64,000 bases of DNA, from positions 8,701,236-8,765,235 of the forward strand of contig OY811978.1 of NCBI GenBank assembly GCA_963681505.1. Reading direction: 5' to 3'. A program made the translations under genes and the position numbers. The stretch is from Eunapius fragilis. Lineage: Eukaryota; Porifera; Demospongiae; Spongillida; Spongillidae. Under the pieces are notes generated by a model. That model did not search any database. It was not told the origin of the DNA and saw only the letters and a program-made list of their open reading frames with translations. Of the stretch, positions 3,341 through 26,833 are shown in pieces (positions within the stretch are counted from its first letter, which is position 1; every line of letters starts with the position of its first letter).

Positions 3341-6300
3341 ATGCAGGGGTACACTGTGGTCCTGTGTCTACTTTTTCTCAGCCATCTTGGTAAGTTAGAG
3401 GTAAGCACATGTCTATCTCCATGACCTCTGATGTCCTCTCCAGGGTCAGCTATCTTCACCACCAACCCCACCAATGTGACCACATGTCTAAGATCACCTG
3501 CTCTGTTCACATGTGTCATCAATGAGGCCAGTACAATAGCCTGGCTGGTCAATGGACAGCAACCTTTAGCACAACCTTCCAGTACACCACTCACTCCTGG
3601 CCCAGGTGTCCAGTCAAATCTGACTGTACCTGGTACTACTGGAGCATCTGTTCTGTGTTACTATCTACCATCTGGATCACTAACTATTGTCTTAAGTTTG
3701 ACTGCCTACTTATCAGTGCAAGGTTTGTAGTTGAGAGTATCCATTCACTCCATCACTTCCACATATTCCTTCAGCTCTTCCTGCTCCTCCCACTAACCTA
3801 ACCACTACTCCAATTAATGCTACCACCACTAAGCTGGCTTGGGTACCACCATCTGCCCAGTCCCCATCCCTCCTCTCCTATGTAGTGGAGGTGAGGAATG
3901 GAAGTGGAGTACTAGTGTACAGAGGGACAGTCAGAGGACCAGAGGTGACCATCACCACACCAGACCCATGTGACCAGTATGAGGCAACTGTTACCTCTCA
4001 GTACATGATACCAAACCTCACCTGTACTGGCAATGGTAGTCCAAGCAAACCTTTAGGAGGTGAGCTATACCTATGTGCATGATCAACCCTGGATGTGTTC
4101 ATTCTGATGATGTTTACGCTTGGCACTTTGTAGACTTCAACACAATGATCCATACTATCACTGCACACTAAGTGCTTATGTGTGTTTATACCAAAGCTAT
4201 GTAGTTCATATGATCATAGTCTTCTTGCATGATCATCATGTAGTGTATGTGTATGTATTGTTGTGTGTATTTACATTTTATATGATAATTACCAATTGGT
4301 GCCTTGTGGTGGGACTTACGTTTGGCAGTGCCATGCTTTTATTTTATTGATTCCAAGTTGCTAGTTTCCTTTTGCCTTCTTGGAGAATACCTGCAGTTTA
4401 GTTTCACATAGGAGTACATAGTCATAACATTGGTCCTTATGTATACATCTTTAGAATTATCCCCTCTGCCTGTCCATTTGATTTGTTACATCGATTTATC
4501 ATATCCTTTCTCCTTTCAGCTTTACCCTCAGCCGTTCAGCCCACCACCTCACTTATGTTCTCCATGGCCCCACATGATAATGTCACTGTGAATGTATCTC
4601 CACCTGTAAGTGAACAAACTGTGTCTTGAAGACATACATACATCGAGGAAGTAATGTGAAGGTCAAATTTCATGATCCAATGAACTAACTTTGCAGCTGC
4701 CCTTTATGTAGGAGTACCTCTAGTTCTCACTTGAAATAGCCATTTTCTTCAAAGGGGTCCAGGGGACATGTATTGGCTAGGGAAACAGGCTGGGGGTTCG
4801 TTAGAATCCTTAATAAATTTTACAAAAGACGGAATAAGTGTAAGTCTAATTTAAGAAGGATACCTACATGTACGTGTATCTCAATTCAACTATCTGGACT
4901 ACATGTACATGGTGTGGGAGGGCTGTGGTTGATTCTTGAAAGACATGTGCATAAAGATTATAACCTCATTAACTTTAGACTGCTTTGCATGTCTGTTTCA
5001 TATTTTCAAGCATCTAGCATAACTTTATAATTTAATAAATAAAAACATTCTCTCTGAGAAAGTTGGTGGGATATAGGTTTTGCAGGCAAATAGTATACTG
5101 GTGTAAAAAGCAAGGAAACAAGTTTTATCAGAAGGGAAAATGTAATAGTCCTATATTTAGCACACTTCAACTAAGGCATATGCTGTTTCTGTGCTAAATA
5201 TAGGACAATTACATTTTCCCTTCTGATAAAACTTGTTTCCTTGCTTTTTACACCAGTATACTATTTGCCTGCAAAACCTATATCCCACCAACTTTCTCAG
5301 AGAGAATGTTTTTATTTACTTGTTTCCTTAATTTTTTTTAACACCCAAATAGGTACTTTTGCTTAATTAGACTTGATAAGATTGTATATAGGCTTTTAGG
5401 CTTTTGTGTATCAAAGCCTAAAATTGACTATGGCGAGTCCTCCAGCAAATTCTAAAGCTATTGGTGCAATTTTCATTGCTTAAAAAGTGTTCCTGTCCCG
5501 AGTTATGAGTTCCCAAGAAGCAGAAGCAGAAGACGACCCCATTATTTAACGAAGACAGCAGTATTTTTCGTTCTCGACAACCACGCAGTTCTATGACGTG
5601 AAACAAAAACGAAACTACTCAGTTTTGACTTCTAGATCGATTGCCGCAACAAGTTAGACGATCCGATCGTCGGGAGCGAAGCTACGGTAGGGTCGCGGGA
5701 TTTTAATTAAATTCATAGCTGGGGTCAAAACCTACATGTATATGGAAGTCTCTAGTGAGACTTCCGATGGTAGGTGCCTTAACCTGTACATGTAGGTGTT
5801 CCAATTCTCTTTTTTTTTTCCCAACAATTAAATAAGAGCAATCAATAATGGGCTATTCCATTTAATGTATGGATAGCACTACAATAAATAACCCCGGACT
5901 CCCCCAGGATATTATGTATATCCACCGTTAATAACTATTTTTCCATCCATACTGTTCATTAAATGGAATAGCCCATTGCAAGACGCTTCATATTATCTAC
6001 AGTGCCTGTGGTTGCCAATGATCTCCAAAGTGAATTTAAAATGAAGCCCTATGTATTAATGTTACATCATTGGAGTTCAAAGGATTCTTCACCATTAAGT
6101 GTGAGAGGACCAGAGGTTGAAATGGAACGCCTAAATGTAGGTTAAAACCATGTTTTTCACCTACATTGAGGCGATCTACCATTAATTCTTGCCGAAGAGC
6201 CATAAGGCCATCTAATAGATTAATATTGACATACATGTAGTTTCTTGACTAACCTAACGATGGAATGTGGAAATGAGGTAGATTAAAGTAGATGTATGTA

Positions 6301-7278
6301 CTGTATAACAGACCTGAATGAATGAAGAGTTCTGTGTAGAAGTGTACAAGGGAGTGACATGCTTTAACACATGGCTGAAATTGCAGGATACGTTGGACAT
6401 GTAAAAGGGCTAGTGCACGAAATAAACACATCCATCAATGCAATAGTGAAATAGTTAGTTAGCACACACATGCACAATATCGACATACCCACACACACTC
6501 ACATAAACACACGTGCACTTAATCATATACATCATGTGCATGGGATGCATATGTTTGGAGTATGTTTGGAGTAACATGGGTATGGGTGTGCGGAATTGTT
6601 TGAGTTGTATTGACCAAGTGCTACATTTACCATAAATATTGAAATGAAGTAACTAGCCATGCATAGCAGGGACAAATATAACTTTTTTGGGATGGCCAGA
6701 CAAAATGTCAAGGGGTAGATGTGTTTGCCCAGACATGTTTCAAAAATGGCCGGTCATTACATTAATAGTAACAGTAATCCAGGTCATCTGGAAGTTTCGC
6801 AACGATACAATGCTGTCCTTGTAGCGCTTACACACATCACAGAACAAAACAGCTACGTGGACATTATCGCGTTACAGTTCACAGCGAAGCCAGACGAGGT
6901 TTGGTTATCGCGATCATTATCTCGTTGCCATCTATCGAAGGTTGCTTTCGGTACTTGTCGCTTAGGTGTTTTTTCTACAGCTAGGACCAAGGCTTTCACT
7001 GCTTCCAGTATCAAAATCACTTCCGAGTTTTTGTCCGGCCATTTTGTCCGGGTGGTTAATTGACCGCCGGACAATAGAGTAAATTAGCCGGACAAATGTC
7101 CGGTGTCCGGCCGTTATAATTGTTCCTGCATAGCATCCAGCCCTGGTCCCAGTCCCATTTACAACAGTAGATGGATTACATCAACGCTAGGTTTGATGGT
7201 TCTGGTGCTATAAGGAGTACGTGGGGTTGACCTGCATTACAGCCTGCTAAGGTAGTGCCACACATAGCAAATTATAAA

Positions 7279-7340
<62 letters not shown>

Positions 7341-8600
7341 CTGTTGCAAGATAATTATTATTTAGGTGTGCAGTGGCCACAAAGTGTGTGGCATAGATAC
7401 CAGACCCTGTTTAATGTAGTGGCCACTGTAACTCCATGATGCATAAGAAGGACATTGTAGAGGCTCTAGGTACATGTATCTTTTAGAATATAAATTATTT
7501 GAAAACATGCATTACACTATTAGAATAATATAAAATCATAAGTTTTGTAATGCATTTATGTCCAATGTCTACTTTCAGTTTCAATCAGGAGTGTGCAACT
7601 ACAAGGTAGTGGCCATATCTGGGTCTGATGTGCTCACATTTCCATCTGTGAAGCCACTCCCACAAAATGGAGGCCAGTTCAATATCCCTATTTCTTTGCC
7701 TCCCAACAAACACTTCAACCTCACCATCACTGCATCCAATGGTTATGGAAGCACCACCTCCTCAGTTCTCATAAGTGAGTAATCTCTCATTGTACCACAG
7801 GAAATAACAGTCCATTACAATGTTTGTTGCTTGATGGTTCCAGGTACATTTGGTGTTATTGGTATCTCTGTCAACACCTCATCTCCCACTGGACTGGTAT
7901 GTCTCTTCAACCCTGGCTCCCTGGCCACAGGATGTTTGGTGTATCTAACAGACACAGCTACTGGTATAATCTACTGCAGAGTGGTTGGGAGATCATTGGA
8001 CACACCAGTCAACACTTCTCTATGTCCCTACTTACGTTACAATGGTCCTCTGAGTACAGGGAACTATTCAGTTATGGTCTATACCATAGAGAGTGATGGA
8101 AGTGTTTCATTGGTACCAGCTATTACTGAAGTGGTGGTGGATATATTTGGACCATCTTCCATGTCACCAGGTACATGCTTGAGTGATGTACATGTAAGTA
8201 ATGTTGTATTCTTTTTCAGAACCTTCTTCAACTCCAAGGATGTATCCATCTTCACCTTCACCGCTAGGTAATTGTACATGTTTATTAAGTAGTATAGTTA
8301 TGAGCCATTCAACATTTTAATTTGTGCTTTGTACACGTAGGTTTACACATTTGTATGATGGAGTGAAGTGCATATGTTTTGAAAGTATCAATTTACATAT
8401 GGGCACACAGCTGTGACAACACAGCCATTACATATGTTATGATGTAGGATTATTGCTATTTCATTACACATTTCATACAGGCACCATTATTGCAGGAGTG
8501 GTTGGAGGGATTGCTGGTATCACCATCATCATCTTCACCATCACTGTAGCTGCTATCATTATGTATAAAAGAGAGGAAAAGAAAACAGAGGAACGTCAAG
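3341..8600 (+). CDS. Ig/FN3-domain single-pass membrane receptor-like gene (ectodomain and transmembrane exons)
   Basis: Eight exons join in frame at GT-AG sites: 3341-3389, 3444-3722, 3775-4059, 4520-4605, 7579-7774, 7844-8170, 8220-8267 and 8481-8600. Exon 1 starts with ATG and encodes a short hydrophobic leader (MQGYTVVLCLLFLSHLG), a likely signal peptide. Exon 2 is Ig-like, with Cys before and after a core Trp (IAWLVNG...VLCYY). Exon 3 is FN3-like (LPAPPTNL...KLAWVPP). Exons 4-5 form a second FN3-like unit ending ITASNGYGSTTSS. Exon 6 is a Cys-rich beta-type domain with several N-x-T/S sites. Exon 7 is a Ser/Pro stalk. Exon 8 has a Gly/Ile-rich transmembrane helix followed by MYKREEKK. 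Most junctions are phase 1. The family is Ig/FN3 adhesion or immune-type receptors; the ligand is unknown. Intron 4 is about 3 kb and contains several repeats. Confidence 0.72.
5034..5768 (+). mobile_element. HHR-3, hairpin-headed repeat inside intron 4
   Basis: The head spans 5034-5323 with arm sequence TTGCAGGCAAATAGTATACT, seen nowhere else in the window but mirrored exactly in its own opposite arm. The body carries a short GAAGCA/GAC tract near 5515-5535. The small terminal hairpin GGAAGTCTC...GAGACTTCC is at 5744-5765. It lies in the sense orientation within the long intron of the receptor-like gene. Confidence 0.75.
5847..5977. mobile_element. short MITE with 30-bp inverted termini
   Basis: The sequence starts AATGGGCTATTCCATTTAAT and ends with its complement, with further pairing (GTATGGAT / ATCCATAC). 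At 131 bp and without coding capacity it has the form of a small MITE. The motif GGAATAACCCATT near 18168 and 28560 may come from related ends. Confidence 0.7.
6660..7115. repeat. repeat-derived intronic block rich in GTCCGG/CCGGAC
   Basis: GTCCGG or CCGGAC occurs repeatedly, mostly at 7030-7115, and GGCCGG near 6747, in both orientations. Sub-terminal motif clusters of this kind are typical of DNA-transposon ends. I cannot define the termini. A 114-codon open frame on the plus strand shows no recognisable domain and is not called. Confidence 0.4.
7281..7339. repeat. (GT)n microsatellite
   Basis: About 29 uninterrupted GT units in intron 4 of the receptor-like gene. Confidence 0.95.
7405..7510. 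repeat. internal relic of the 36-kb MITE family
   Basis: GGCCACTGTAACTCCATGAT, then AAGAAGG, GTAGAGG and a TAATTTGAAAAC-like end occur in the same order as inside the two MITE copies at 35984-36487. The TIRs are not preserved. It lies in intron 4, just upstream of exon 5. Confidence 0.55.
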
Positions 8601-8924
8601 GTTGGTTGTTTTTAGAGCAGTAACAGCATCATTTTTATTGTAATATGATTTAAGTGGAACAAAGAGAACAGATGGTGCGTAAAAGAGGAGAAAAAATAAA
8701 AGGGAAATCTGAAGGTTGGTTGTTTTTAGAACAATAACAGCATAATTTTTATTGTAATATGATTTAAGTGGAACAAAGAGAACTGATGGTGCGTAAAAGA
8801 GGAGAAAAGAAAACAGGGGAATCTGAAGGTTGGTTGTTTTTAGAACAATAACAGCATAATTTTATTGTAATATGATTTAAGAGGAACAAAGAGAACAGAT
8901 GGTAATCAATCATGCATGTAGTTA
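8601..8924 (+). CDS. triplicated cytoplasmic micro-exon of the receptor-like gene
   Basis: A ~114-bp unit (54-nt intron plus 60-nt exon) is repeated in tandem. Exons 8655-8714 and 8769-8828 each start in phase 1 after TTTAAG and end GAA-G before GTTGGT. They encode VEQREQMVRKRGEK and VEQRELMVRKRGEK-type basic peptides. The third copy starts at 8882 (EEQREQM). It has lost the usual donor and reads to a stop near 8924, so it may be a terminal exon. The unit seems to derive from the end of the transmembrane exon, which shares KREEKKTEE and the same following intron. All units are phase-compatible, so the juxtamembrane tail can lengthen by 20 residues per copy. The AAG acceptors are weaker than CAG, so real usage is uncertain. 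Confidence 0.55.
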
Positions 8925-9064
8925 GGTGGTCATGTATTTGCAACATACTTCCCCTTTCACATGGCCATATGCCAATTCAAATAGCTTTGACCCTACAAAC
9001 CAGACTATAGTTTTTTTTGTGCAGCATAAACATACATAAACATACATGTAGTTATTCTCATGAA

Positions 9065-9280
9065 TGTTCGATGATGGGATCAAATAATAGTCCTGGGACC
9101 TTTTATATCAGTTGACCTATGTTTGGTCATCCTTATTCCATGGACTGCCTATTGGCTACCTATCCTTGAGGTAGAAACGCTTGCTTGTTTATTAGGGAGA
9201 GTCGAGTTCTGGAGTTCTCACGGTCGTAGCTATGCTAACACATAACGCTACCCTATACGGGTATATTCAAAACAGTATTA
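9065..9280 (+). repeat. dispersed repeat, copy 1 of 2
   Basis: It matches 29640-29850 in the same orientation, for example CCTATGTTTGG, CATCCTTATTCCA, TACCTATCC and AGGGAGAGT in order. Divergence is moderate, so duplication is old. The origin is unknown. Confidence 0.6.
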
Positions 9281-9530
9281 CAAAATACAATACTGCATAC
9301 ACAACAGAAGGAAGATACATGTACATTTGTATAGGCAATCCAATGGACTGTCCGGCAGAGTTATATCAGCCAGACAGGGTTTCATCGAGATGGGGGTGCA
9401 GGGGGGGGGGGGGGGGGGGGCATTTGCCCCCCCTTGCCATTATATTGCCCCCCCCTTGGTATTTATGGAGTGATCTTTAATAAATGCATCATAACTACAC
9501 AAGTGATGAATACAACTTTACTTAATAAAG

Positions 9531-12167
9531 TTAAACAGCAATCCTTCTACCTTTTCTATTCCATATGTCAATTATTGCATCAAGATCATCTTCTGATAGT
9601 ATATCTGGAGACTCTATTGCTATTTTCATTAAACTAGACAAGCTTGAATCACTTAGACAATTTCTTAGACGAGTTTTAATCAACTTCATCTTCTTTCCAC
9701 AGATGCTGTTGAAACTGGAAGAGTTAGACTAATGGTAGCAAGTGTACTTTAATTTGGAAACATGGTTTATAACATTTCGTTCGAAGCTAATTTATTTAAC
9801 TGGAGTTTCATGTTTCTTGGTGGTTGTTTAGCCATATATCGGCGGAATGTTTTCCATTCTGTCTTGATATCAGGTGAGATCAATGCAGCTTTGGTTGTTT
9901 CATCACCTTGCATAGTCTCAGCAGATTTGTCTACACCATAATGCGCAAGGAGTGCACTGACAAAAACTTCTCCATAATGGGAACGATCACTAGAATACTC
10001 ATCAGGCACTTTAAGTGGATCAAAAATACTAAGAGCAGTTATAACATCTCCAGCTGAAGCAAAACGACTTAAAATATTACCTTTCAAGTGACTGATAAAT
10101 GGTTCAGCAATTTTCTCTTGAAATTCCTTGATGTCATCATAAGTCATTTTTGTTCCAGTTGCTTTTCCCAAGTTCTCCATTTCATCTTTCAGCTCTAAAT
10201 CCCAGTCTGCTGCAGGGGAGAGTGCATCATCTAGAGTGTGCAGGGTTGCAGTGACAAGACTAGATATAACAGATAAATCTAGGTGTTCAGACTGTAGTGT
10301 TTTGCTCAGTTGTGCCACTGGTGGAAGTGTATAGTCAAGCAAATATATAGCTGAAACTGAAGCTTTCTTACTGAGAGCCTTGGGGCTTCTGGTTCATGGG
10401 TTTGAGCGTGGATATTGTCCAGAGCAGATACAATAGCACAATAGCTTGCTTTCACACCCTTCACACAGCGCTCATGTGACAGCCAACGTGTATCAGAAGG
10501 TTTTATGATTTTCAATTCAGGCATTTCATAAATATGCTGGACCTCTTTGAGAGACTCTGTTCTCTTTGGAGAGTTGTTAAAAAATTTCCAAAGTGTGGTC
10601 AATGTTACATATATGTGTTGTATTCCAGGAGTGGCATTGGCAGCTTGAACACAAGCCAACTGTAACATGTGGCAATGGCAGTGCACAAATAGTGCATGAG
10701 GTGCATGCTTCTTTAATCTAGCCTGAACTCCAGTTAACCTACCTGAGAATGTACTTGCTCCATCAAAACCCATTCCTATAACTTTGTTTATATGGAGGTT
10801 TTTCTGCTTCAGGCAATCAATGATAGCTGAGTAGATACTCTCAGCATCAGCTTTATGTATGGATGACCTCCAGGAAGTGCTCCTTTGGAACTCCATCTTC
10901 CTCCCATCTGCAGAACAGAGACAACTCCTCCACTATCAGTGCACTCATCTGCCATGATGCTATAGTGCCTTGCGTTATGCAGATCGATTCTTCCACCCAA
11001 GTGCCTAATGCCTCCACAAACTCCACTACAGCTACGTGAGATGTGTAGACAGCATTCTTTCCTGTACTCTCTAAGAAGCGCTTCAGACTCTCCCCTCCAC
11101 AAGATACAACTAGATCAACAAGCTTTTCAAAGTTCGTTGTATGAGGTATATGCTGTCTAGCAAGGAAATGTGTGCAGCGAATTAGGGATTTAATAGCTGC
11201 TCTGTTTTTCAATTTATCTTGTTTCTCAACATTCTGCAGTTTTTGTACCACTGATCCTTCGAGGACTGCTCCCTCTGCAGCCAATGCTGATTCCTTTGCC
11301 ATTCCATGTCCAACACTTTGTTCATGAGCTTTCATTTTTTCCACAGCCTTCTTCCAATTGGTGAATGGTTTAGCAACCCATACACCTCCAGTTCGTTCAA
11401 GGGACTTCCCATACATGTACAACCTGCAGAACTTGCAGAATGCACCTTCATAATCTGCATCATATTGAAGCCAAGGAAATGTTGTCTCCCAGCTTTTGCA
11501 ATATTTCCTACAGCTGGTTGTGGAATGGAATGATCCTTTGCCTGAGAATGGAATTACCAGCAACATGGGCACTTTTTTTGTGCTTCTTGCAAGCACCAGA
11601 TTCATTTTCTTCCATCGGTTCATCATTACTGCTGTCAATGTCTAGTGTAGCTGTTTGTTTAGAAGCATTTCGTTTCTTGCTAAAGGCTGTAGAAACAGCT
11701 GATGATTCTTTGCCTGAAGAAGTTGGAACATCCAATCCTTTGCTTGAGGAGGCAGTTGGAACAGGTGATCCTTTGTCTGAGGAGGCAGTTGGAACAGGTG
11801 ATCCTTTGCCTGAGGAGGCAGTTGGAACAGCTGATCCTTTGCTTGAGGAGGCAGTTGGAACAGCTGATCCTTTGCTTGAGGAGGCAGTTGGAACAGGTGA
11901 TCCTTTGCCTGAAGAGGCAGTTGGAACAGCTGATCCTTTGCCTAAGGAGGCAGTTGGAACAGCTGATCTTTTGCTTGAGGAGGCAGTTGGAACAGCTGAT
12001 CCTTTGCTTGAGGAGGCAGTTGGAACAGCTGATCCTTTGCCTGAGGAGTTAGTTGGAAAAGCTGATGTAGTAAGATCTGATTGTGAGCGACTAGTTTCAA
12101 AGAACGAACGAATATCCATATCAATCAGGCGCGTTACAGCGGATAAATAAGCACCAATCAAAAACAC
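9531..12167 (-). pseudogene. hAT transposase pseudogene with TTF/ZMYM-like N-terminus
   Basis: Read right to left, the pieces are: a start near MDIRSFFETS; an 11-residue repeat tract; a zinc-finger-like segment with FCKFCRLY (TTF type); a DUF4371-like catalytic region containing HYSIMADECTD, IGMGFDGASTFSG and HCHCHMLQLAC; SDTRWLSHE; and a C-terminal dimerisation relic (STLATISLTLPVSTASVER, then KTRLRN). This order matches the hAT transposases related to ZMYM1 and PRKRIR. The frame changes near 11540, 11000, 10890 and 10340, and there are stops and a small loss in the dimerisation region near 9690-9760. It cannot make an active enzyme. Its repeat tract is unusual for the family. Confidence 0.8.
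11715..12055. repeat. 33-bp minisatellite within the hAT coding region
   Basis: About ten copies of a 33-bp unit (plus strand: GAGGCAGTTGGAACAG plus TGATCCTTTGC) encode an 11-residue repeat of the type GSAVPTASSSK on the minus strand. Because 33 is a multiple of 3, copy-number change keeps the frame, and long open frames also appear on the other strand. Confidence 0.9.
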
Positions 12168-12284
12168 AGTAACAAGATGAAAAAGCGCTATCTATTTATT
12201 ATAATGTCTAATGTCCTGGGCGTGGACCACAGAGCACATTTGTACATCGCGGGTACATGTAAAGCAATGTTTGTTTTTTTGTTC

Positions 12285-12530
12285 TGCCGTTTCAGTCTTT
12301 GTAAAAATCCTTATATGTTGGAGCCGAAGCTTTGAAGGCCTAATCCGTTGCTCTTATAGTAACGTGACATAGTAGAGATACCCGGTACCGTAACACGCGA
12401 GAGGGCACATTGATACTGAACCTTTGCTATGCCACGTGCACGTTGCTATAGAAGCAGCGGAAGCTCTTAGGCCTTCAAAGCTTCGGCCCAAACCAACCAA
12501 TAAGGACCTCTACAAAGTGAAAAAACAGTC
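12285..12530. mobile_element. nested inverted-repeat element inside the hAT
   Basis: GCCGAAGCTTTGAAGGCCTA at 12323-12342 pairs with its exact complement near 12468-12487. Weaker pairing continues outward (CCTTATATGTTGG against CCAACCAATAAGG). This fits an old MITE inserted upstream of the transposase start. Confidence 0.55.
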
Positions 12531-12599
12531 AAATATCACTAGAATGCTAAATGGCGGAATGCGATTGTTTTGCGTACCCCACGATGTACAAACGTCCTT

Positions 12600-12700
12600 C
12601 GTAGTGCACACCTAGTTGGGCGTAGTGCACACCTAGTTGGGCGTAGCCCAATCATCGCCAAACGCGAAGGTTGGGCTACGCCCAACTAGTGCATACCCAC
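12600..12700. repeat. tandem plus inverted repeat of GTTGGGC
   Basis: GTAGTGCACACCTAGTTGGGC occurs twice in tandem. It is followed by an inverted copy around GTTGGGCTACGCCCAACTAG, giving a compact cruciform-prone segment. Confidence 0.75.
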
Positions 12701-13047
12701 ATTATTTACATGAGAGATACACCATAATCATAATCATAAGTATACTAATTGTCTACAGTGTATGTGGTACTTGTTAAGAGAATTCATTTAATCTACGGAC
12801 AGGTATACAAAAGAACGCTACACATATGTTTATGAGAGACACGATGGTGTTACCCAAGAATATTAAAACAACAGCATTTGAATAATCTGCATGTTGTTGC
12901 ACGTATACGTGTACATTTACAAGAGATAACTGTAACACCAGTCTGTAGTCTAAAAGTTATTTGATTTGCCTTATAATTGCCCCCTCTAAAAAAATATAAA
13001 CTCTACTTTTGCCCCCCCTTGAGGTTATTTCTCAATGAAACCCTGGC

Positions 13048-13487: not shown

Positions 13488-13576
13488 GAGATATGGTGAA
13501 ACACTTTCCCCACTTGATTGAAGTTGATAATGTAGCACCTGCTTCTGGTACATTGGGTGGAACTCAGTCTGCCTAA
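13488..13576 (+). CDS. candidate 3' terminal exon, alternative receptor tail
   Basis: After an acceptor-like TTGATTGAAG, a phase-1 reading encodes DMVKHFPHLIEVDNVAPASG and ends GGTQSA-stop at 13576. The phase fits the upstream transmembrane exon and micro-exons, which end in phase 1. The acceptor is weak (AAG). It may instead be a chance frame; there is no clear domain. Confidence 0.35.
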
Positions 13577-13955: not shown

Positions 13956-14153
13956 ATCTCATTACAGCACCTAATCCATCTTATGCTTCACCACGTGATC
14001 TAGTAAAGATCTTTTGACATTTAGTAGTACAAACAAAGCCACCATACTTCTCACAGTGTACATCCATATTCGTACATGCTTTTGTATGTAGATTGTAGTA
14101 ACTGTGCATGTGTGCAATGCTTATTAATAGAGTGAGCATTGTACAGCAATAAA
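13956..14153 (+). CDS. candidate 3' terminal exon with NPSY motif and polyadenylation signal
   Basis: After TTTTTCCTCAG, the phase-1 reading is LITAPNPSYASPRDLVKIF-stop (stop at 14015-14017). NPSY is an NPxY motif, the type recognised by PTB domains or endocytic adaptors. AATAAA follows at 14148-14153. A second copy lies at 15244-15379. The exon could terminate the receptor-like gene or a lost neighbour. Confidence 0.5.
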
Positions 14154-15110: not shown

Positions 15111-15175
<65 letters not shown>

Positions 15176-15243: not shown

Positions 15244-15379
15244 CACCTAATCCATCTTATGCTTCACCACGTGATCTAGTAAAGATCTTTTGACATTTAG
15301 CAGTACAAACAAAGCCGCCATACTTCTCACAGTGTACATTCATATTTGTGTATGTAGATTGTAGTAACTATGCAATAAA
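15244..15379 (+). CDS. second copy of the NPSY terminal exon
   Basis: After TTTCCCTCAG the phase-1 frame reads PNPSYASPRDLVKIF-stop (stop 15291-15293). AATAAA is at 15374-15379. Nucleotide similarity to 13965-14153 extends through the 3' UTR, so the duplication includes the polyadenylation region. An exon beginning just upstream (near 15188, SDQERDVFDRS) would read across this exon in another frame and stop at 15280. Confidence 0.5.
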
Positions 15380-15553: not shown

Positions 15554-17897
15554 TTGTCAGGTTACTGTCAGTGAGATCTGATTCAAGTCCGCGTTTTTTA
15601 CCACCTGGTGCTGATAGAGGACAGCAGTCAATAGGGATGAAACAGGTGTGCCCATGTTTGATCGTCACATTGTGTATGTCTACAGAAGGTATACATGTGT
15701 ACATGTGTATCAATTACTATTATTTTTGCTATGTTCTCAACCCATTGGGTCATTATTTGTACTGTGCCCCATCTTCTATTGGCACTGTGCTCCATCCATT
15801 AATAACACTGCTCTGCCCATTGGTACCCACCCACCATTGGTGGTTACATGTAACTGTTCCCTCCCCAGGTGTAATGTCTTTAGTAAGGACCTAAGATGTC
15901 ATTTATGTTTATTAGATTAACTGACATTTCTCTATACATATATATATATATATATGGGACAGTGTCCAGCTAAATCACCCTTATGGTACTTTATTAAAAT
16001 TTCCAGAACAAGCAAAAGAAAAGTAACGCTCGCATTGAAATGTATGGCTAATTATAAATTCAATGCCTAATAACTTTGTGATGGATAGTCCGATTTAGGA
16101 TGCGTAAGGACCATTTGACAGAAGCTCATGGGTGTTCAAGGAAAATCAAAAATTTTGAAAACTTGAAAAACTAGCCAGAAGGGTGATTCTGCTGTCCCAT
16201 ATATATATATATATATATAAGCTATTGATGACACACCCCTAGCATCACAGCACATCATCTGCATGAGTAGTATTGTTATGCATGTCATGTGCCGTACATG
16301 TATACAGTATGCCTCTTTGTAACACTTGGTTTCAGTTTCAGAAAACATCTGCTGATTTAAAAGTGACTGACATGGAATCTGCTGCTACTATTGAAGGCAA
16401 TGTTACAGAGCATCCTACAGCAATGGAAGGTAAAACTGTCTGTAGTAGCTGTGGTTTTAATAGGCATTTACACTTTTTGTTTCTTCCTGGGTTAGTCGGT
16501 GGGTGGGCAAATGGATGCATGGATTTAAGATTCGGTGCAAAGGTGTGCTAAAAAGCCACTAGCACAATGGGGAATTTTATTGCTGGTCAGTTGCAAATAA
16601 CTTTAATGCAGCCTGCGGTACTGAATTAGACCTACAGAAGTAAAGGTCAAAGGAGGACAGATGATATACTTCAAACATCCCTCGTGATAGGTCAGGTCTC
16701 TTCTGATTTGACAGCTATAGTCTTGTATCCAGTCATGCTTCAAAAAATAAAAACATTAATTTTATTTAATCAATATGCCTTTATCTAAAAATGGCTAGCC
16801 ATTTAACCATGCTGAACCTCGCAGGCCTAATCTGGACAATGGATCCAAACTACATTTCTCTCCCTCCTTGCATATGGAATGCTAAAAAGACACAGTTACA
16901 TGTAAGAGGTGGAGAGTGATACAGTGGAACTGGAGGTGTACAATTTACCCAACGGTTCATTTGAAAGGAAGATGTAGACAGCAATAAAGTTATTGGGTAT
17001 CGAATTTGAGGGCTATAGTAGTATAAAAAGTAAGGAAACAAGTTCTGGGTGAAACATGAAATGGGACGTACCTATATTTAACTGTAATGTAGTTGCAAAT
17101 GTGTTTCATTTCAGGCTTTATTACCATCTTTGCCTTCAAATCCTATATCTCACCAACTTTTTTTATAGAGAATGTTTAAAATATTATTCCATATATAATG
17201 TATCAGTTGTTAAGTGCAATGCAACCATTAGCTGAGGCATCTAATGATGGAAGGTCTGGACTTTCTACTGGTGGGAGAAATCAGCCATCAAAAGCAGAGG
17301 TATGCTTCAATGAAAATAGTTTATACCGTATTTACAGAGGGAATTCAATTAGTGCCCGTAAATTTACTTCATGGAATCATGCTCACCATGTTTAAACATT
17401 AATGACCACTTTCTAGACCCACCCCACCCCCTCCCCTCCCCCTCCATGTAAAATTGTAGCTCCTTTTGAGTGAACCTGGTTTGATTTAAAGCAAGTATCC
17501 GTGTTTTGTATGAAAGAATTTTGTTGGTAATCAACAATTGATGAAGACATGGCCTGAAGACAAGTTTGCATTGAGAGATTACAAGAATGGGTATTATCAC
17601 ATGAAAGCTCCCACACCCTTACATGTACATGTATGATGTTCCCACCTTGCAAGTATTGTATCATGGCATTGTATTATAATCCCATTTTTACCTTCATAGT
17701 ACATGCATGTATTGTAATCTCATGCATTTATCTACAACCACTATTTCATTACAATTAACTTTTTAATGGTACACTCTTGCAATAACATTTAAATATTTTC
17801 TTCACTCAGGGACAATATGCTGTTGTTGAATTTGTAGGAAAACCACTTATTGCGCCTGATGGAGGAAAACCTCTGGTGTATTCCGAAATAAAACCAG
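15554..17897 (+). CDS. cytoplasmic-tail cassette A (four exons, ITIM-like)
   Basis: Exons 15554-15645, 16336-16429, 17232-17299 and 17810-17897 have GT-AG borders, with phases 1-0, 0-1, 1-0 and 0-1. Together they give an open reading starting VVRLLSVRSDSSP, passing TIEGNVTEHPTAME and EASNDGRSGLSTG, and ending GQYAVVEF...KPLVYSEIKP. LVYSEI fits the ITIM consensus (S/I/V/L)-x-Y-x-x-(I/V/L), and YAVV is a second YxxV site 21 residues earlier. The sequence is polar, with no signal peptide or domain, as expected for a signalling tail. Cassettes B and C are paralogues. A stop-containing terminal exon for A is not evident before the transposon at 18700. Confidence 0.6.
15956..16198. mobile_element. 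MITE present only in cassette A
   Basis: GGGACAGTGTCC...AATCACCCTT at the left and AAGGGTGATTCTGCTGTCCC at the right form ~25-bp TIRs. Both sides are (TA)n, consistent with a TA target. The equivalent positions in B (about 22885) and C (about 26650) lack it, giving natural empty sites. TIR style and target fit a Tc1/mariner-type MITE. Confidence 0.75.
16985..17180. repeat. degraded HHR head in cassette A
   Basis: GGTATCGAATTTGAGG, GTATAAAAAGTAAGGAAACAAG, CCTATATTTA and CCTATATCTCACCAAC...AGAGAATGTTT occur in the order of an HHR head, but much of the right arm is lost. The same relic is at 23590-23790 in cassette B and in part at 29150-29335. Confidence 0.6.
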
Positions 17898-18028
17898 GTC
17901 AGAAACATATTTAGCCGTTTACTCCTGTAGATGACAATAGATGGTGTCCTGGGGTGTGTGTGTTTATAATCATGACATTGCCCAGGGAAATATGTCCCGG
18001 GGAGTGGTGGTAAAAATGCCTATCCCGC

Positions 18029-18135: not shown

Positions 18136-18699
18136 GTCTTCTGCAGGATGTATGTTTAAACAATGGAATAACCCATTGCAGCTGTTATATACTTAACCAC
18201 AATCACGTGGTACATGTAGATGTTATTGATTTGGTTTAGTGTGTGTTATTGATTCAATAATGCCTAAGATGGAATAGTATTGTGGTGGCATCTGAATGGA
18301 GAACAAATTGTAGTTAATCTTTGTTTACGAATACAGTGGCGATGGAAAAACACATCTTCAGAAAGTAGCCAAGAAACCAATAAGTATTGTTGGAAAGGGC
18401 TAAACAACATCCCAATGGGGAGGTGGTAACTATGGGAACGAGATGAAGGATGGTACCACTTCCATTGTTAATGACCATCACTTTGACTGGTGCCAGTATG
18501 TATTTGCAAGCCATGTCAACGTACGCAGACATACACACACACACACACACACACACTCGCAAGCAAAAATGTTCCTCTCGTTCCCTAATAATCTACCCAT
18601 AAATCCCATACACTCCAGATAAACATCTGAGCTGTGGGCATAAATAAAACCTAACTAACTATTTTAGAGCAAGTGAGCCCACACCAACATGTACATAAT

Positions 18700-21600
18700 G
18701 GGTCATTCCATACTTAATTGAGCCACCCTAATCTCAAACAGAAGTAATATTTTCCATATATTATCTACCCCAAGAAATATACAAAATCTTATAATCTTAA
18801 GTTATTTGGTTTATGAAATATAACTGTTTAAATAATTTGGGGTTTGGACTACATGGAGGAGCATTGCTTTAACCTTGTTATGGCTATGCTAGGGAATCAT
18901 ATACACAATGAAGGGTACAATTTGGGTGTACTCATTTGTAATGCAATTTATTACAGAAGTCACAGATATCATGAATATTTAATGAGATTTTAAGTACATA
19001 AGAATTCATTTTAAACCAAATTGCACCAAATTTTTTGGGGTGGTGGCTGCTAATGCCAATAGAGGTTCAGGCTTGTAAGTATTTTGGGAAACAAATACAC
19101 TGGGCTGGGACACCCTATTCAAAGGCTGGCAGCCATTTTTGTGTCCTCCCCTTAAAGTTGTTATGGTCAAGTGGGTTTACATATAACTCTTAGGTGTTAA
19201 TTGCGAATGTCATTATAGAGAATTAACATACAGGCCTTCATCTAAACACCACAATGAAGCGTTTATTACGCACCATTCATGTAGACAAAGGGTAGCCGAT
19301 TCGATGTTGGCTTCGAAGGCAAAAAGCAACTATAGTGCATCGTTAAGTTAATATACACGAAGGCCCTGGCCGCTCCAATGTTTGTTGTGCGGCTCTGCTT
19401 TGTTGAATTGTATGCTCTAACAAAATTGCAATTCAACCTAGCGCACGCATTAGAATGGCGCGTAGCATCTTTGTTAGAGAGAACACAAAAGGTAGCGCAT
19501 AACCGGTTGGCATGCATGTATAAAAGGCCTACAATTGTGGATTAGAAGTGTAGTTCCCTGCCATGTCGTTTCTTGGTATAAAAATCTGCTGCAACCCACT
19601 TAAGCTCCATCAGAAGGTCCAGAAAAGGGATGTAAGACGTTTGTCAGAAAGAGTTGTAGCCCAGTATCCATCACTTGGACTTCAATACATTTGTATTACT
19701 TGCTGGAAAGAATTGAAAAACAGAATCCAAGCTGTAGCACCTGCACCCACTTCACTTGAGAGCATGGATGATAGCCTGCCACCTCCTGTTGACAGCCCTG
19801 GTGACACCAGGGACAGCGAATGTGGAAGCACATGTTCCTCTGATAGCAAGCAGACAACTGACAGCACTGAACAAGATGCATCTTCTGTTCAATCAGCAGG
19901 ACCCTCAGCACCGTTTAAGCGCAAACACTGTCAGATGGATGATACTGGAGAAGAGATGATTCGCCAGCTGAAAGAAAAATTTCATTCCACGACATCTAGA
20001 AGAGAGAATGAGGGTACTGACAGCCTTACCTCAGAGCTGGTCCACACGCAAAGTTGCCAAGATGTTCGGTGTATCAAGGTACTTAGTGACAAAGGCCAAA
20101 CAGTTGGTGGCAGAGAAGGGTATTCTATCTTGACTCGGTGTTTGTTTGCACTATCCACCAGAATGTTAAGCTAATGATGGCAGGTAGCATGCTGGAGTCG
20201 CTCACACAGGGAGAAATCAAACATTTTCGGCACTGCCTTGCTGCAATGCAATGCAATCCTCCCAATATAGAGTGCTTTCTTGGCAACTGCAACCAATGCC
20301 CTGGTGCAGAGCCACTTCGTGCTAGACTGCAAGCTGTGACCGATGAAAATGAAATTGACACAGTGGAGATCAGACAGTGGACAACTACAGACCGTGCTAC
20401 ACTTGAAACTAAAGTTTTGTCTGTGGATGAGTTCATTGAGATGTTCATCACTATGCTCAAAAAGCTATTGGTACACGACTTCATAGCCACAATGCAGGCC
20501 AGTTTCTTGCAGCAACGAAAGGATACTCTTAAGGACGGAGAGTTTTTAGTAGTAGCAGACTTTTCAGAGAATTATAGTTTTGTTGTACAAGACGAAATCC
20601 AGTCCTTTCACTGGAACAATTCATCAGCCACTATCCGTCCATTTGTGTGCTACTACATGACAAAGGAAAGCTTGCAAACCTGTGCTACATCGTCATTTCG
20701 GAAAGTCTCCAGCATGACACAATAACAGTACACCTTTTTCAGAGGAAACTTGTGGAGTTCTTGACACAAGAATGTGGAGGGAAAAAGCCACAGAAAATTA
20801 TGTACATGTCAGATGGGTGTGCTGCACAGTACAAGAATTGCAAGAACTTTTCTAATCTATGTTACCACTTTGAGGATTTTGGTGTCAAAGCAGAGTGGTA
20901 TTTTTTTGCCACATCGCATGGCAAGTCTGCAGGAGATGGTGCTGGAGGAACATTGAAGAGGCTCGTCACAAAAGCTAGTCTTCAACGCCCATATGAGAAC
21001 CAAATTCTAACTGCATACCAGCTCTATAACTATACAGTCACCGAGATCAAAGGGATGCACTTTGGATTTGGAACTGTGGATGAGCATGACCAGGAATCCA
21101 AGCTACTGGAGGCACAGCTGAAAATGAGTCGAACTATTCCAGGTACCCAGAAACTTCACAGCTTTGTACCACAATCTACCAACACAGTAGAAGTAAAGTA
21201 GTTTTCAAACAGCAGTACATCAAGGATTGAAAAGGTTAATTTTGTGGAGGCTGTTAACCATCTCCCGTTTGTTGCCATCAGTAGATACGTTACTGTTCTA
21301 TACAATGGATCCCGTTGGCTCAGATACGTTCTTGGAAGCGAAGAATCAGACCGTGTGGTAACAGTAACATTCCTCCATCCATGCATTCCAGCTGCATCAT
21401 TTGTTTACCCTGATCATGAGGACGTTCTGGACATTGATCCCTCTGATATTTTGACCCATGTTAATCCAACTACTGCTACGGGTCGAACATATGTTCTAAA
21501 ATGCAAGAAGCCAACCTTGCTTTAGCAGCTAGACTCTGACAATTGTAACGTTTAGATAGAGCTGTACTTTATAAACTTTATGGATTGTCTGTTATAACAT

Positions 21601-22109
21601 TGGCAATTAACACCTAAGAGTACTATGTAAACCCACTTGACCATAACAACTTTAAGAGGAGGACACAAAAATGGCTGCCAGCTTTAAAACAGGGTATCCC
21701 AGCCCAGGGTGTTTGTTTCCCAAAATACTTACAAGCTTGAACCCCTATTGGCATTAGCAGCCACCACCCCAAAAAATTTGGTGCAATTTGAATTCTTATG
21801 TACTTAAAAATCTCATTAAATATTCATAATATCTGTGACTTCTGTAATAAATTGCATTACTAATGAGTACGCCCACATTGTACCCTTCATTGTATATATG
21901 ATTCCCTAACATAGCTATTACAAGGTTAAAGCAATGCTCCTCCATGTAGTCCAAACCCCAAATTATTCAAACGGTTATATTTCTTAAACCAAATAACTTA
22001 AGATTATAAACATGTACAGAGATTTTGTATATTTCTTGGGGTAGATAATATATGGAAAATATTACTTCTGTTTGAGATTAGGGTGGCTCAATTAAGTATG
22101 GAATGACCC
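18700..22109 (+). mobile_element. DDE transposon with ~500-bp terminal inverted repeats
   Basis: The left end starts GGGTCATTCCATACTTAATT at 18700 and the right end is its complement at 22109. The TIRs run to about 19210 and from about 21600 with only scattered differences (for example an extra CTGTACATG in the right arm). TAAT lies immediately outside both ends, a possible 4-bp target duplication. Inside is a plus-strand transposase relic. The superfamily is not one I can name with confidence. It lies at the right edge of cassette A and is absent from the matching point of B (24892). Confidence 0.8.
19563..21525 (+). pseudogene. DDE-type transposase pseudogene
   Basis: Segments in order: a Cys-containing N-terminal part (CCNPLKLH, CITCWKELK); an acidic Ser-rich linker; an HTH-like stretch in a shifted frame near 20050-20130 (RKVAKMFGVSRYLVTKAKQL); then a catalytic core with VVADFSENYSFVVQDE, MSDGCAAQYKN and FATSHGKSAGDGAGGTLKR; and a C-terminal part with TATGRTYVL. 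The D residues in ADFSENY and MSDGCAAQ look like the first two catalytic acids. This protein family is common in invertebrate genomes. Frame changes near 20040, 20140, 20690 and 21200 make it non-functional. Confidence 0.7.
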
Positions 22110-22117
22110 TAATACAT

Positions 22118-22318
22118 CTAAGATTGTATCATCTGTAGTGAAAATGTTATTGCTTTGGTTCCTATAAATTCAGCTTTCCAATCACCTTCCATTCCATAAC
22201 CAGCATTGGATAATTCAGTATCTCTTGAAATCATGTAGTGGGGGTTGTCTAAACCATTTAATTCCTTAACAGCCGTATCATTTCCTTCTCCCTTTTCCAT
22301 TTTGTGCATCAGAGTCAT
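22118..22318 (-). CDS. possible exon fragment with NPHY motif
   Basis: The minus strand reads MEKGEGNDTAVKELNGL, then DNPHYMISRDTELSNAGYG, and stops beside the right end of the DDE transposon. The composition is protein-like and NPHY is an NPxY motif, as in the terminal exons on the other strand. No clear splice sites or homologue are seen, so this is only a candidate. Confidence 0.25.
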   Translation of the reverse strand: MTLMHKMEKGEGNDTAVKELNGLDNPHYMISRDTELSNAGYGMEGDWKAEFIGTKAITFSLQMIQS

Positions 22319-22547
22319 CCATGGGCCATGTCTTCACACACATACACACACACACCAGTGTGCACACACACACACACATACATCATAGCAAAGGTCACAC
22401 CCTTACTTCCTGACAGTCCCCTGTTCGTTGCTTCCAGTGTTCTTATTTACTGACATCATGTGTAGTGCCATTTTTACAGCTTAGTATCAGATTAAGAATG
22501 AGATGTTTGTAATGGTTCACCTTGAAGGTTCCCTCTGACACTATTAG

Positions 22548-24639
22548 GTGCCACATTACCAGAAGAAGTGCAATCTGATTCATGTAGTATGAGTCCTGTA
22601 CCTGGTGATATTGGAGGACAGCAGCCACTAGAGATGAAAGAGGTGCGCCCATGTTTGATCATCACATTGTAGATAGGTGCATGTCTTAAATCCATTGGGT
22701 CATTATTTGTACTGTGCCCCACCTTCTATTGGCACTGTGCTCCATCCATTAATAACACTGCTCTGCCCATTGGTACCTGCCCACCATTGGTGGTTACATG
22801 TAACTGTTCCCTCCCCAGGTGTAATGCCTTTAGTAAGGACCTAAGATGTCATTTATGTTTATTAGATTAACTGACATTTCACTATACATGTATATTAATG
22901 ATACACCCCTAGCATCACAGTGCATCATCTGCATGTCTAGTATTGTTATGTATGTCATGTGCCGTAGATGTATACAGTATGCCTCTTTGTAACACTTGGT
23001 TTCAGTTTCAGGGAACAACTACTGTTATTGATGGCAATGCTGCAGAGCATCCTACAGCAATGGAAGGTAAAACTGTCTGTAGTAGTTTTAATAGGCATTT
23101 GCACTTTTATTTCTTCCTGGGTTAGTTGGTGGGTGGGCAAATGGATGGATGGATTTAAGGTTGGGTGAAAGGGTGTGCTAAAATGCCACTAGCACAACGG
23201 TGAATTTAATTTTTATTATATGCTGAAATGACTTTTTAAATGCAGCCTGCAATACTGTATAGATATATAGAAATAAAGGTCAAAGGACAAACGTTCAGTA
23301 ACAAATCAGGTCTCTCCTGATTTGTGAGTTATAGTCTTGTATCCAGTCATGCTTCAAAAATCATTTTATGTAGTCAATATGCCTTGATCTAAAAATGGCT
23401 AGCCATTTGACCTGCATATTACATGCTGAACCTCTGCCTAATCTGGACAATGGATCCAAACTACATTTCTCTCCCTCCTTGCATATGGAATGCTACAAAG
23501 GCACAGTTACATGTAGTGATACAGAGGAACTGGAGGTATACAATTTACACATTGTACTCGATAGGTTCATTTGAAAGGAAGATGTTGGCAGCAATAAAGT
23601 TGTTGGGTATCGAATTTGAGGGCTGTGTAGTGGTGTACAAAGTAATGAAACAAGTTCTGAGTGAAACATGAAATGGGACGTATCTATATTCAACTGTAAT
23701 GTAGTTGCAAATGTGTTTCATTTATCTGCCATCTTTGCCTTCATATCCTGTATCTCACCAACTTTTTTATAGAGGATGTTTAAAATATTATTCCATATAT
23801 AAATGTATCAGTTGTTAAGTGCAATGTATCCATTAGCGGAGGCATCTAATGATGGAAGGTCTGGACTTTCTACTGGTGAGAGAAATCAGCCATCAAAAGC
23901 AAAGGTATGCTGGAGTGAGAATAGTTTATACCGTATTTACAGAGGGAATTCAATTAGTGCCTGTAAATTTACTTCATGGAATCATGCTCACCATGTTTAA
24001 ACATTAATGACCACTTTCTAGACACACCCCACCCCCTCCCCTCCCCCTCCATGTTCCTTTTGAGTAAACCTGGTTTGGTTTAAATCAAGTATCTGTGTTT
24101 TGTATGTAATTAATCAACAATTGATGAAGACATGGCCTGGAGACAAGTTTGCATTGAGAGATTACAAGAATGGGTATTAACACATGAAAGCTCCCACACC
24201 CCTACATGTACATGTATGATGTTCCCACCTTGCAAGTATTGTATCATGGCATTGTATTATAATCCCATTTTTACCTTCATAGTACATGCATGTATTGTAA
24301 TCTCATGCATGTATCTACAACCACTGTTTCATTACAATTAACTTTTTAATAGTACACTCTTGCAATGACATTTTAATATTTTCTTCACTCAGGGACAATA
24401 TGCTGATGTTGAAATTGTAGGAAGACCACTTATTGCGCCTGATGGAGGAAAACCTCTGATCTATTCCGAAATAAAACCAGGTCAGAAACATATTTAGCCG
24501 TATACTCCTACAGATTACAATAAATGGTGTCCTAGGGGAGGAGGTGTTTAAAATCATGACGTTGTCCTAAGAAATATGTCCTGGGGAGTGGTGGTAAAAA
24601 TGCCTATCCCGTATATCATGTGTATGTCAACGTACGCAG

Positions 24640-24719
<80 letters not shown>

Positions 24720-25513
24720 GCAACCAAAAATGTTCCTCTCACAGAGAAGTTTTCCAATAATCCATCCATAAATCCTACACACTCCAGATACACATACATG
24801 TATTTAACCATTTTTCACGAAACAAATATCTGAGCTGTGGGCATAAACAAAACCTACTATTTTTGACCAGGTGAGCCCACACCAACATGTACTTTCAGAA
24901 AACCTAGAGGAAAAAATACTCAGCTGGAGCATATCCAATTGTGGGCATGGGAGTGGTTTGTTCATGCACACCCATCTGCATTGTCCTTGTATTTACATTC
25001 AAGATACTGATATCTACATCTTCACAGCAGCAGGTGGTATTACCATTGTGCTGATGTGGTTAGTGCTCCATTTCCTTCCCCACTATTTTCCTTGATGTAT
25101 ATACTATGTTTGCTGAATGTATTATGTTCTTTTCAGACAACATTTGCCGTGCTCCTGGATGTAACAAGACCAGGCATGTTAGCCGGAAAAGAACATATTC
25201 CTTCTGTGGTGGCAGTGTCTGCGTGCATAGTCTGCTAACCAGTAAGTATTTATTGATCCTTTGGTTTGTGGGCATGGATGTTAGAGCATACACATGCGGA
25301 TATTTTTCTCATGTACATATATCTGTGGGTATGTGTGTGTGTTTGTGTTCTTTCAAAGATGATTGCCAGCAAGAAGGCAAGGTGATCCATTCAGCACTTG
25401 ATTTCATGTCTTATTGCCATCAGCATCAAGTGCTAATCGAGATGACATGTGGCAATAACATAAATGTTACATTTGCATGTACTACCATTGTTGCAGCTGA
25501 TGGGACAGTTTAA
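22548..25513 (+). CDS. cytoplasmic-tail cassette B (six exons, ITIM-like plus Cys-rich module)
   Basis: Exons 22548-22642, 23006-23066, 23837-23904, 24393-24480, 25137-25241 and 25359-25513 join in frame. Readings include GATLPEEVQSDSCSMSPVPG, EASNDGRSGLSTGERNQ, then QYADVEIVG...KPLIYSEIKP (ITIM-like LIYSEI), then a symmetric phase 1-1 exon with C-x3-PGC...FCGGSVC, and a terminal exon starting DCQQEGKVIHSALDF with stop TAA at 25511-25513. The Cys spacing suggests a small zinc-binding fold. The first four exons are paralogous to cassette A, with the same lengths or in-frame differences and identical phases. An upstream ectodomain is not present next to the cassette. Confidence 0.62.
23590..23790. 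repeat. degraded HHR head in cassette B
   Basis: Same relic and position relative to the exons as at 16985-17180 in A, so the hairpin insertion predates the A/B duplication. Confidence 0.6.
24643..24717. repeat. (CA)n microsatellite
   Basis: About 37 CA units. The matching positions of cassettes A (18534-18555) and C (28895-28917) have much shorter runs, so the length changed after duplication. Confidence 0.95.
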
Positions 25514-25551
25514 GAGTGAGGGGATTATTGGAGATGGAGGGTTAATGAAGG

Positions 25552-25557
25552 AATAAA
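25552..25557 (+). terminator. AATAAA polyadenylation signal after cassette B
   Basis: AATAAA lies 39 nt after the stop codon at 25513, consistent with the end of a transcript. Confidence 0.5.
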
Positions 25558-25680
25558 AAAATTGGCTTATACCAAAAGTTTTTAAGGTGGAATGGGTCTA
25601 TGCTAATTGATAAGAGAATCTTACTCCCACCCTTATTCACTGACTTTTATAATTAAGGTGCTACACTCTACTGCCAACAG

Positions 25681-26833
25681 GTCAGAAACATACAATGCTC
25701 CATGATGGATCTTCTGTAGCAGCTCCATCTTCCAGCCTCTCTCCACCATGTAATCCAGGTTTGCTACATCTTTTTATTCATAGATATTATATTTACAGAA
25801 TTTGATGCCAGCAGATGTCTGTGATGTTCCTCAATGCAACTGGCCAAAATATAAGCAAGGGAAATGGAAGTTTTGTAGTGGCACTGTATGTGGCAGGGAT
25901 TTTCCAGGTACTGCATTGTGGTATAGTACATGTTGTGTGGTTTCTGAAATACATGTATACCATGTTGGTTTGTTTGCATGTACATGTATGTTCTGGTGCA
26001 CATATGTTTCACTTGAAATGAAACACAAGAGGGTTAAGTAATGGCATTTAATACTTTATTTTTTTATCACTGAAATCAGTCCCAGTATTCACAATTCTAT
26101 TACGTGTAATCCAACCAGATCGGGGCCTGTGTTGGTATAAATCATCTGTTTTAATAAATCATATGACTGGGGAAAAGAAGAAAGGAGGGCATTTAACCTC
26201 CGTTGCATTCTTAGACCTGCACTCACTTAAATATTATCTGTTAAGAATGAGATGTTTGTAATGGTTCACCTTGAAGGTTCCCCCTCTGACACTATTAGGT
26301 GCCACATTACCAGAAGAAGTGCGATCTGATGCATGTAGTATTAGTCCTGTACCTGGTGATATTGGAGGACAGCAGCCACTAGAGATGAAAGAGGTGTGCC
26401 CATGATTGATCATCACATTGTAGATAGGTGCATGTCTTAAATCCATTGGGTCATTATTTGTACTGTGCCCCACCTTCTATTGGCACTGTACTCCATCCAT
26501 TAATAACACTGCTCTGCCCATTGGTACCCACCCACCATTGGTGGTTACATGTAACTGTTCCCTCCCCAGGTGTAATGCCTTTAGTAAGGACCTAAGATGT
26601 CATTTATGTTTATTTCATTAACTGACCTTTACATGTATGAATAGTATATATATTTTGGCTATTGATGACACACCCCTAGCATCACAGCACATCATCTGCA
26701 TGTGTAGTATTGTTATGTATGTCATGTGCTGTACATGTATACAGTATGCCTCTTTGTAACACTTGGTTTCAGTTTCAGGGAACTACTACTACTATTGAAG
26801 GCAAGGCTACAGAGCATCCTACAGCAATGGAAG
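25681..26833 (+). CDS. tail cassette C (four exons, second Cys-rich module, truncated)
   Basis: Exons 25681-25758 (phase 1-1, Ser/Pro-rich, GQKHTMLHDGSS), 25812-25907 (phase 1-1, CDVPQC...FCSGTVC), 26299-26393 (phase 1-0, GATLPEEVRSDACSISPVPG) and 26773-26833 (phase 0-1, TTTTIEGKATEHPTAME). The last two match exons 1-2 of cassettes A and B. The counterparts of exons 3-4, including the ITIM-like exon, are missing: the minisatellite joins sequence matching 16877 directly to sequence matching 18029. Here the Cys-rich module precedes the shared exons, whereas in B it follows them. The acceptor of the Cys-rich exon could alternatively be at 25799. Confidence 0.5.

Follow-up and report, generated by a model that had tools for sequence, protein, structure and literature searches.

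A receptor gene of the sponge Eunapius fragilis raises the question of whether one ectodomain can be connected to different cytoplasmic tails. The gene lies on the plus strand of a 64,000-nucleotide stretch of contig OY811978.1 (C8:8701236-8765235; hereafter the window), and the genome searched comprised 219 Mb in 24 contigs. A silicatein segment used as query matched 89 places in it, three of them over nearly the full length with 49-55% identity and most of the rest only in part; cathepsin-type proteases are also picked up by such a query, so that by this criterion a demosponge source is likely. An initial annotation had proposed that an ectodomain with Ig-like and FN3 domains is followed by several signalling tails of compatible phase that splicing might exchange. 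Judged from the sequence, genes of this family do combine one type of ectodomain with differing tails, and two kinds of tail, one with an NPxY motif and one resembling an immunoreceptor tyrosine-based inhibitory motif (ITIM), are likely used alternatively from one gene.

The receptor gene and its tail exons

Eight exons between positions 3341 and 8600 of the window join into a stop-free open reading frame (ORF) of 463 codons, laid out as signal peptide, Ig-like domain, FN3 domain, further ectodomain and transmembrane (TM) segment. Exon 1 (3341-3389) encodes the signal peptide MQGYTVVLCLLFLSHL and was matched by tblastn in four other C8 genes, with 100% identity in the gene called S3 below and 75% in the other three. 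Exon E2 (3444-3722) is Ig-like, with a weak match below threshold to Pfam Ig_3 (E 0.0049, 17.8 bits, cut-off 30), and E3 (3775-4059) passed the Pfam fn3 cut-off (30.5 bits vs. 25, E 4.1e-7). Exons E4 (4520-4605), also found in paralogues, and E5 (7579-7774), FN3-like by eye only, gave no Pfam match when taken together, and neither did E6 (7844-8170) above cut-off. The latter exon encodes a module that marks the family: when 80 candidates were scored, it matched 70 places genome-wide, of which 39 lie on contig C6 and 13 on C8, and some are fragments or contain stops; thus, the receptor family is large. E7 (8220-8267) encodes the stalk EPSSTPRMYPSSPSPLG, which proved to be a class marker, and is followed by the TM exon (8481-8600). 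The eight-exon join upheld the annotation that the TM exon ends in phase 1, and a phase-1 start was confirmed, again as annotated, for each of the eight first tail exons checked.

Behind the TM exon come a basic micro-exon, m1 (8655-8714, phases 1-1), part of a 114-bp tandem duplication, and its copy m2 (8769-8828). Exon t1 (13488-13576) probably corresponds, in decaying form, to the exon with which the tail starts in short-tailed genes (homologue DMVVTNMMDTYQDLAT, by eye). Exon t2 (13956-14017) encodes the C terminus DLITAPNPSYASPRDLVKIF, with the NPxY motif NPSY, and then a stop, and t3 (15244-15292) is a truncated copy of t2 (97% identity over 106 bp). After this tail, an extra tail is found in tandem copies, two complete and one partial. 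Cassette A (15554-17914; A1 15554-15645, A2 16336-16429, A3 17207-17299, A4 17810-17914) reaches LVYSEI and a stop, and cassette B (22548-24497; B1 22548-22642, B2 23006-23066, B3 23812-23904, B4 24393-24497) reaches LIYSEI and a stop. Cassette C (26299-26833; C1 26299-26393, C2 26773-26833) is a remnant without detectable A3 or A4 homologues and with no detectable ITIM-like exon. The Cys-rich module associated with the array had one further match in the genome (C1:16585027, 47%), and Pfam returned nothing above cut-off for the tails. The annotated variety of tail motifs was retained as NPxY and ITIM-like kinds with an optional Cys-rich extension, with t3 reduced to a truncated copy.

Conservation of exon order among paralogues

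The exons were compared by tblastn with C8:8601236-8865235 and C8:7505001-7525000. The order TM exon, t1, t2, cassette was repeated in two paralogues: a minus-strand gene that starts at C8:8791071 and converges on the window gene, and a gene at C8:7511007-7522143 (the 7.51-Mb gene), which was read from E5 onward, its first exons not being found in the stretch fetched. The frame of t1 is broken in the latter.

Three other genes, S1, S2 and S3, carry the same ectodomain type and, after the TM exon, a first tail exon starting with DMV and then a terminal exon, ITAANPAYAARQDVMTKQCHHTSS and a stop; in S3 the first tail exon is longer and NSAY replaces NPAY. No convincing cassette exon was detected near any of the three (tblastn, E up to 0.1). 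The NPAY tail is shared by L031 (about 2.6 kb past the TM exon read), and the C6 members L033 and L034 also have NPVY-type exons. As NPxY-type terminal exons recur in these genes, t2 is the standard tail exon of the family. The short-tailed S3 is the head-to-head neighbour of the window gene (C8:8690800-8695022, minus strand; L017 and L018), and its tail exon is charged and about 86 residues long.

In another gene, L032 (C8:8461970, minus strand), an A3 homologue, DVKLQPLAEASN, with a phase-1 start and matching phases, lies about 360 bp past the TM exon, and no t2-like exon was seen between them. A 24-mer search allowing up to three mismatches located A3 at six places genome-wide, that of L032 with two mismatches, and at none with a reversed control. 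Between t2 and A1, four ATG exons with a phase-1 donor were found in the window, two of which use one donor (mean after shuffling, 1.0), and none in either paralogue. Since the exon order is conserved in two paralogues, the A3 homologue follows the TM exon in L032, the juxtamembrane region sorts with tail type (see below) and no alternative ATG exon is conserved before A1, the cassettes very likely belong to the ectodomain-bearing gene, which agrees with the annotation of all these exons as one gene.

Near-identical ectodomains on two tail classes

Across tail classes, E5-E6 with the intron between them showed 94-96% DNA identity in the five genes compared (S1 and L031 left out). Just past E6, in the next intron, identity was 58.7-60.6% between classes, gaps set aside, compared to 91.5-94.3% among the window, converging and 7.51-Mb genes and 97.6-99.2% among S1, S2, S3 and L031. 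Over the stretch that begins 100 bp ahead of the signal peptide and runs through E3 (7.51-Mb gene left out of the 5' segments), the window gene was closest to the short-tailed S3 (94.8%), with 89.2% for the cassette-bearing converging gene. The segment of E4 with 40-bp flanks fits less neatly (75-77% when the window or converging gene is compared with each of the others, 91-94% within S1-S3), and the core of the TM exon alone did not clearly separate the classes.

A tree of the juxtamembrane region of seven genes grouped the cassette genes with a split support of 1.000, whereas these were not grouped in the E6 tree, most supports of which were low (0.12-0.85). The stalk exon starts with EPSSTP in the window, converging and 7.51-Mb genes and in L032, and with EPSPSTSS in S1, S2, S3 and L031; the tails likewise differ by class, NPAY (NSAY in S3) vs. 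NPSY plus an ITIM-like cassette. At the sequence level, near-identical ectodomains on differing TM/tail classes are a paired-receptor pattern, the simplest reading of which would be that the tails stay fixed while the ectodomain is exchanged by gene conversion or exon shuffling. As the outer part is the same and the inner tails differ, one sensor may feed different signals. The annotated idea of one ectodomain on different outputs thus holds between genes of the family, but its several outputs come down to two tail kinds.

Reading frames and splicing options

In the 7.51-Mb gene, with the start of A3 set at its CAG acceptor, A1-A2-A3-A4 is open across 131 codons and ends in GQKHI and a stop; as a control, 20000 four-piece joins were drawn at random from the window, and 42 of them stayed open over 128 codons. 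The start of A3 in cassettes A and B and in the copies of the converging gene has five bases fewer than in the 7.51-Mb gene (by eye), so that the A2-A3 join breaks the frame. Within cassette A, and again within B, YSEI is kept by just two of 15 exon subsets, A1-A4 and A1-A3-A4; likewise, two of the seven subsets tried keep it in the first cassette of the converging gene. The cassette exons of A and B are not freely joinable, and skipping of A2 retains YSEI, which corrects their initial description as phase-compatible cassettes. Given this frame break, inclusion of A2 would decide whether the ITIM-like motif is made in these genes. Both t2 and A1 have a phase-1 start, and translation stops within t2; therefore, use of cassette A needs a choice between them.

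The splice donors of the cassette exons remain strong. A4 was considered as an always-internal exon on account of its donor (score 7.0), but a read-through stop is present in all four copies, so both internal and terminal use are possible. An AATAAA word starts 186-212 bp past the start of t2 in the three class-2 (cassette-bearing) genes and in neither of two short-tailed genes tested; this is weak evidence, because 14 such words occur within 16 kb around.

Selection on ectodomain and tail exons

Synonymous and nonsynonymous differences were counted in NG86 style, the pairs of copies not being independent, and expressed as the ratio of nonsynonymous to synonymous differences per site (pN/pS). 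Exon t2 showed eight synonymous and two nonsynonymous differences over three pairs (pN/pS 0.09); the window and converging copies are identical, so that independent differences number only about 4 and 1. E3 showed 29 and 35 over ten pairs (0.43), and both t2 and E3 appear to be under constraint. The synonymous to nonsynonymous counts of E2 (45.5 to 152.5), E5 (11.5 to 28.5) and E6 (36.5 to 86.5), with six pairs each, gave 1.23, 0.84 and 0.86, i.e. these exons are unconstrained by the same measure as the cassettes, and the value of E2 compared to that of E3 hints at diversification of the Ig-like domain. Cassette counts were 2 to 6 for A1 (one pair), 0 to 6 for B1 (three pairs), 3 to 22 for A2 (six pairs), 8 to 28 for A3 (ten pairs) and 11 to 30 for A4 (six pairs). 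Left out of these counts were the two longer A2 copies (cassette A and the 7.51-Mb gene), the shortened first exon of the converging gene's first cassette, that gene's A1 remnant, S2 for E2, and S1 for E5 and E6. The NPSY exon t2, at first listed beside the other candidate tails, is now read as the standard one, and no constraint was detectable on cassettes A, B and C.

Separate counts were made for the diverged A4 copies (pN vs. pS in the core, 0.118/0.207, 0.185/0.289 and 0.125/0.115). All six A4 copies fit the ITIM pattern (I/V/L/S)xYxx(I/L/V), as LVYSEI, LIYSEI, VVYSKI or IIYSKI, with YSEI in the four recent copies and YSKI in the two diverged ones; the neighbouring motif APD[EG]GK is kept as well, its conservation being built in because it was the search pattern. 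Two further two-mismatch matches to the A4 pattern were found on C18 and C23. The ITIM-like exon is presumably expressed in the cytoplasmic tail. A comparison of exon and flank identity, in which t2 stood out most, was dropped as a test of coding function because the copies are too recent.

A proposed choice of tail and its alternatives

Taking the observed exons, phases, order conservation, tail classes, duplication and insertion together, it is probable that these genes form a paired-receptor-like family in which class-2 splicing chooses the last exon and thereby an NPxY or an ITIM-like tail. One ectodomain type of this large, clustered sponge family sits on two TM/tail classes: class 1 has a short tail with an NPxY-type motif, and class 2 (the window, converging and 7.51-Mb genes) the NPxY stop exon and then at least one cassette ending in an ITIM-like exon. 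By a putative choice of last exon, joining of the TM exon to t2 would produce the short NPxY tail, and joining to A1 with t2 skipped a long one; the YAVV and LVYSEI of this long tail may be phosphorylated, would then recruit SH2-domain proteins and might signal in the opposite sense. In the window gene, a single ancestral cassette was multiplied in tandem to three, the third incomplete, the array was invaded by mobile elements and gained two Cys-rich exons, and A2 now has to be skipped for the ITIM frame. An extended version appears unlikely, namely that the tandem cassettes are alternative last exons which give a single ectodomain an output of NPxY, of one or two ITIMs, or of an ITIM together with Cys modules, with the class-2 ectodomain homogenised with short-tailed partners, as a built-in tail switch that arose apart from vertebrate paired receptors.

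Several observations weigh against a functional choice of tail. No purifying selection was detected on recent cassette copies (pN/pS 0.95 for A1, 1.09 for A3, 0.94 for A4 and 2.16 for A2), exon and flank identities mostly did not differ clearly, and the count for t2 comes from three copies, two of them identical. The frame is lost when A2 is included, both in A and B, where a stop then precedes YSEI, and in the converging gene's first cassette; a stop lies inside A3 of the converging gene's second cassette, and AATAAA follows the A4 stop in just two of four recent copies. In L032 a convincing A4 was missing from the 10 kb read, a stretch that contains an N gap, and L035, with a stalk of the EPSSTP type by eye, showed neither t2 nor a cassette in the 2 kb past the TM exon. 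The frame break at A3, the stop in the second A3 and the lack of constraint beside an apparently constrained t2, together with the incomplete C and the mobile-element inserts, would be expected if t2 alone were used and cassettes A-C were decaying leftovers of an older ITIM-type tail. Such a relic array is nevertheless rather unlikely, since the cassette donors are still strong, the 7.51-Mb cassette is open through all four exons, A4 retains frame and stop in four of four recent copies, and YS[EK]I persists in all six copies, including the two diverged ones. The cassettes do follow an exon that has both a stop and a poly(A)-type signal, but it is very unlikely that they form the 3' end of a different gene lying behind each class-2 receptor, with a promoter and first exon independent of it: among coding exons in the interval between t2 and A1, none that combines an ATG with a phase-1 donor is conserved, the A3 homologue directly follows the TM exon in L032, and cassette presence tracks the juxtamembrane class. 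The preferred reading thus remains a choice between t2 and the cassettes, and the exons and junctions named here are supplied for testing it.

Relation to known receptor systems

Siglec-11/Siglec-16 and CEACAM1/CEACAM3 are described as pairs with near-identical extracellular parts and differing tails, one with ITIM-type tyrosine motifs, the similarity of Siglec-11/16 being attributed to gene conversions (PMC5701461, PMC5112662). In arrangement the sponge family resembles them, with shared ectodomains and tails that differ, one being ITIM-like, but it belongs to another lineage, its short class bears an NPxY-type motif, and opposite signalling and a shared ligand are putative. No link to an immunoreceptor tyrosine-based activation motif (ITAM) or to a charged-TM adaptor was noticed in the sponge genes, though no systematic search for one was made.

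In CEACAM1 a single internal exon decides the tail. Splicing of this one receptor gene has been described as deciding whether the tail has ITIMs (PMC4113144); the sponge gene would also be a single gene, but with proposed alternative last exons and tandem cassettes. According to PMC12065747, cnidarian and ascidian allorecognition receptors form clustered families with ITIM/ITAM-type tails, among them the Botryllus fester co-receptors (FcoR), an immunoglobulin superfamily (IgSF) cluster with ITIM, hemITAM or core tyrosine tails and a splice swap, and Hydractinia Alr, an invertebrate IgSF cluster with ITIM/ITAM-type motifs. FcoR differs in being ascidian, with an Ig plus sushi ectodomain and known transcripts, whereas the sponge family, read from the genome, has Ig/FN3 ectodomains, NPxY vs. 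ITIM-like tails and tandem cassettes; Alr is cnidarian. No title on ITIM-type receptors in a sponge was among the matches listed from the open-licence literature. If sponges have a receptor family in which ectodomains are shared, tails fall into two classes and ITIM-like cassettes duplicate, paired-receptor logic would be placed near the base of the animals.

Mobile elements and other features of the region

The introns of the window gene, annotated as large for a compact genome, contain transposon-like inserts. One (9375-13045, minus strand) has imperfect inverted ends and a short flanking duplication by eye, with ORFs on the minus strand, and is missing from the converging and 7.51-Mb genes; another mobile-element-like insert (18700-22109, plus strand) has 536-bp inverted ends that are 90.7% identical. 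Five ORFs from both inserts gave no Pfam match above cut-off. Three palindromic elements of about 300 bp, similar to miniature inverted-repeat transposable elements (247-544, 1645-1946 and 5036-5339), are 73-85% alike and have ends like ataaaaacattctct.

Further plus-strand features lie at 25137-25241, 25681-25758 (weak donor, 4.0) and 25815-25907 (weak donor, 4.5). A 31-bp minisatellite occupies 27290-28514, where A3 and A4 of cassette C would be expected, and a shorter array of the same unit follows A4 of the 7.51-Mb gene (C8:7522189-7522664). A possible next exon near 29400 has one frame open in the window and at C8:7.52 Mb, broken in the converging gene's copy, and was excluded. A long simple repeat with an N gap (39653-40903) produces spurious long ORFs in several frames. 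On the minus strand, a diverged A4-type exon with IIYSKI (55724-55795), likely of the converging gene's array, and a third Cys-rich module (62957-63079), probably of the same array, mark the apparent far end of the gene that starts at C8:8791071, whose array would span about 34 kb.

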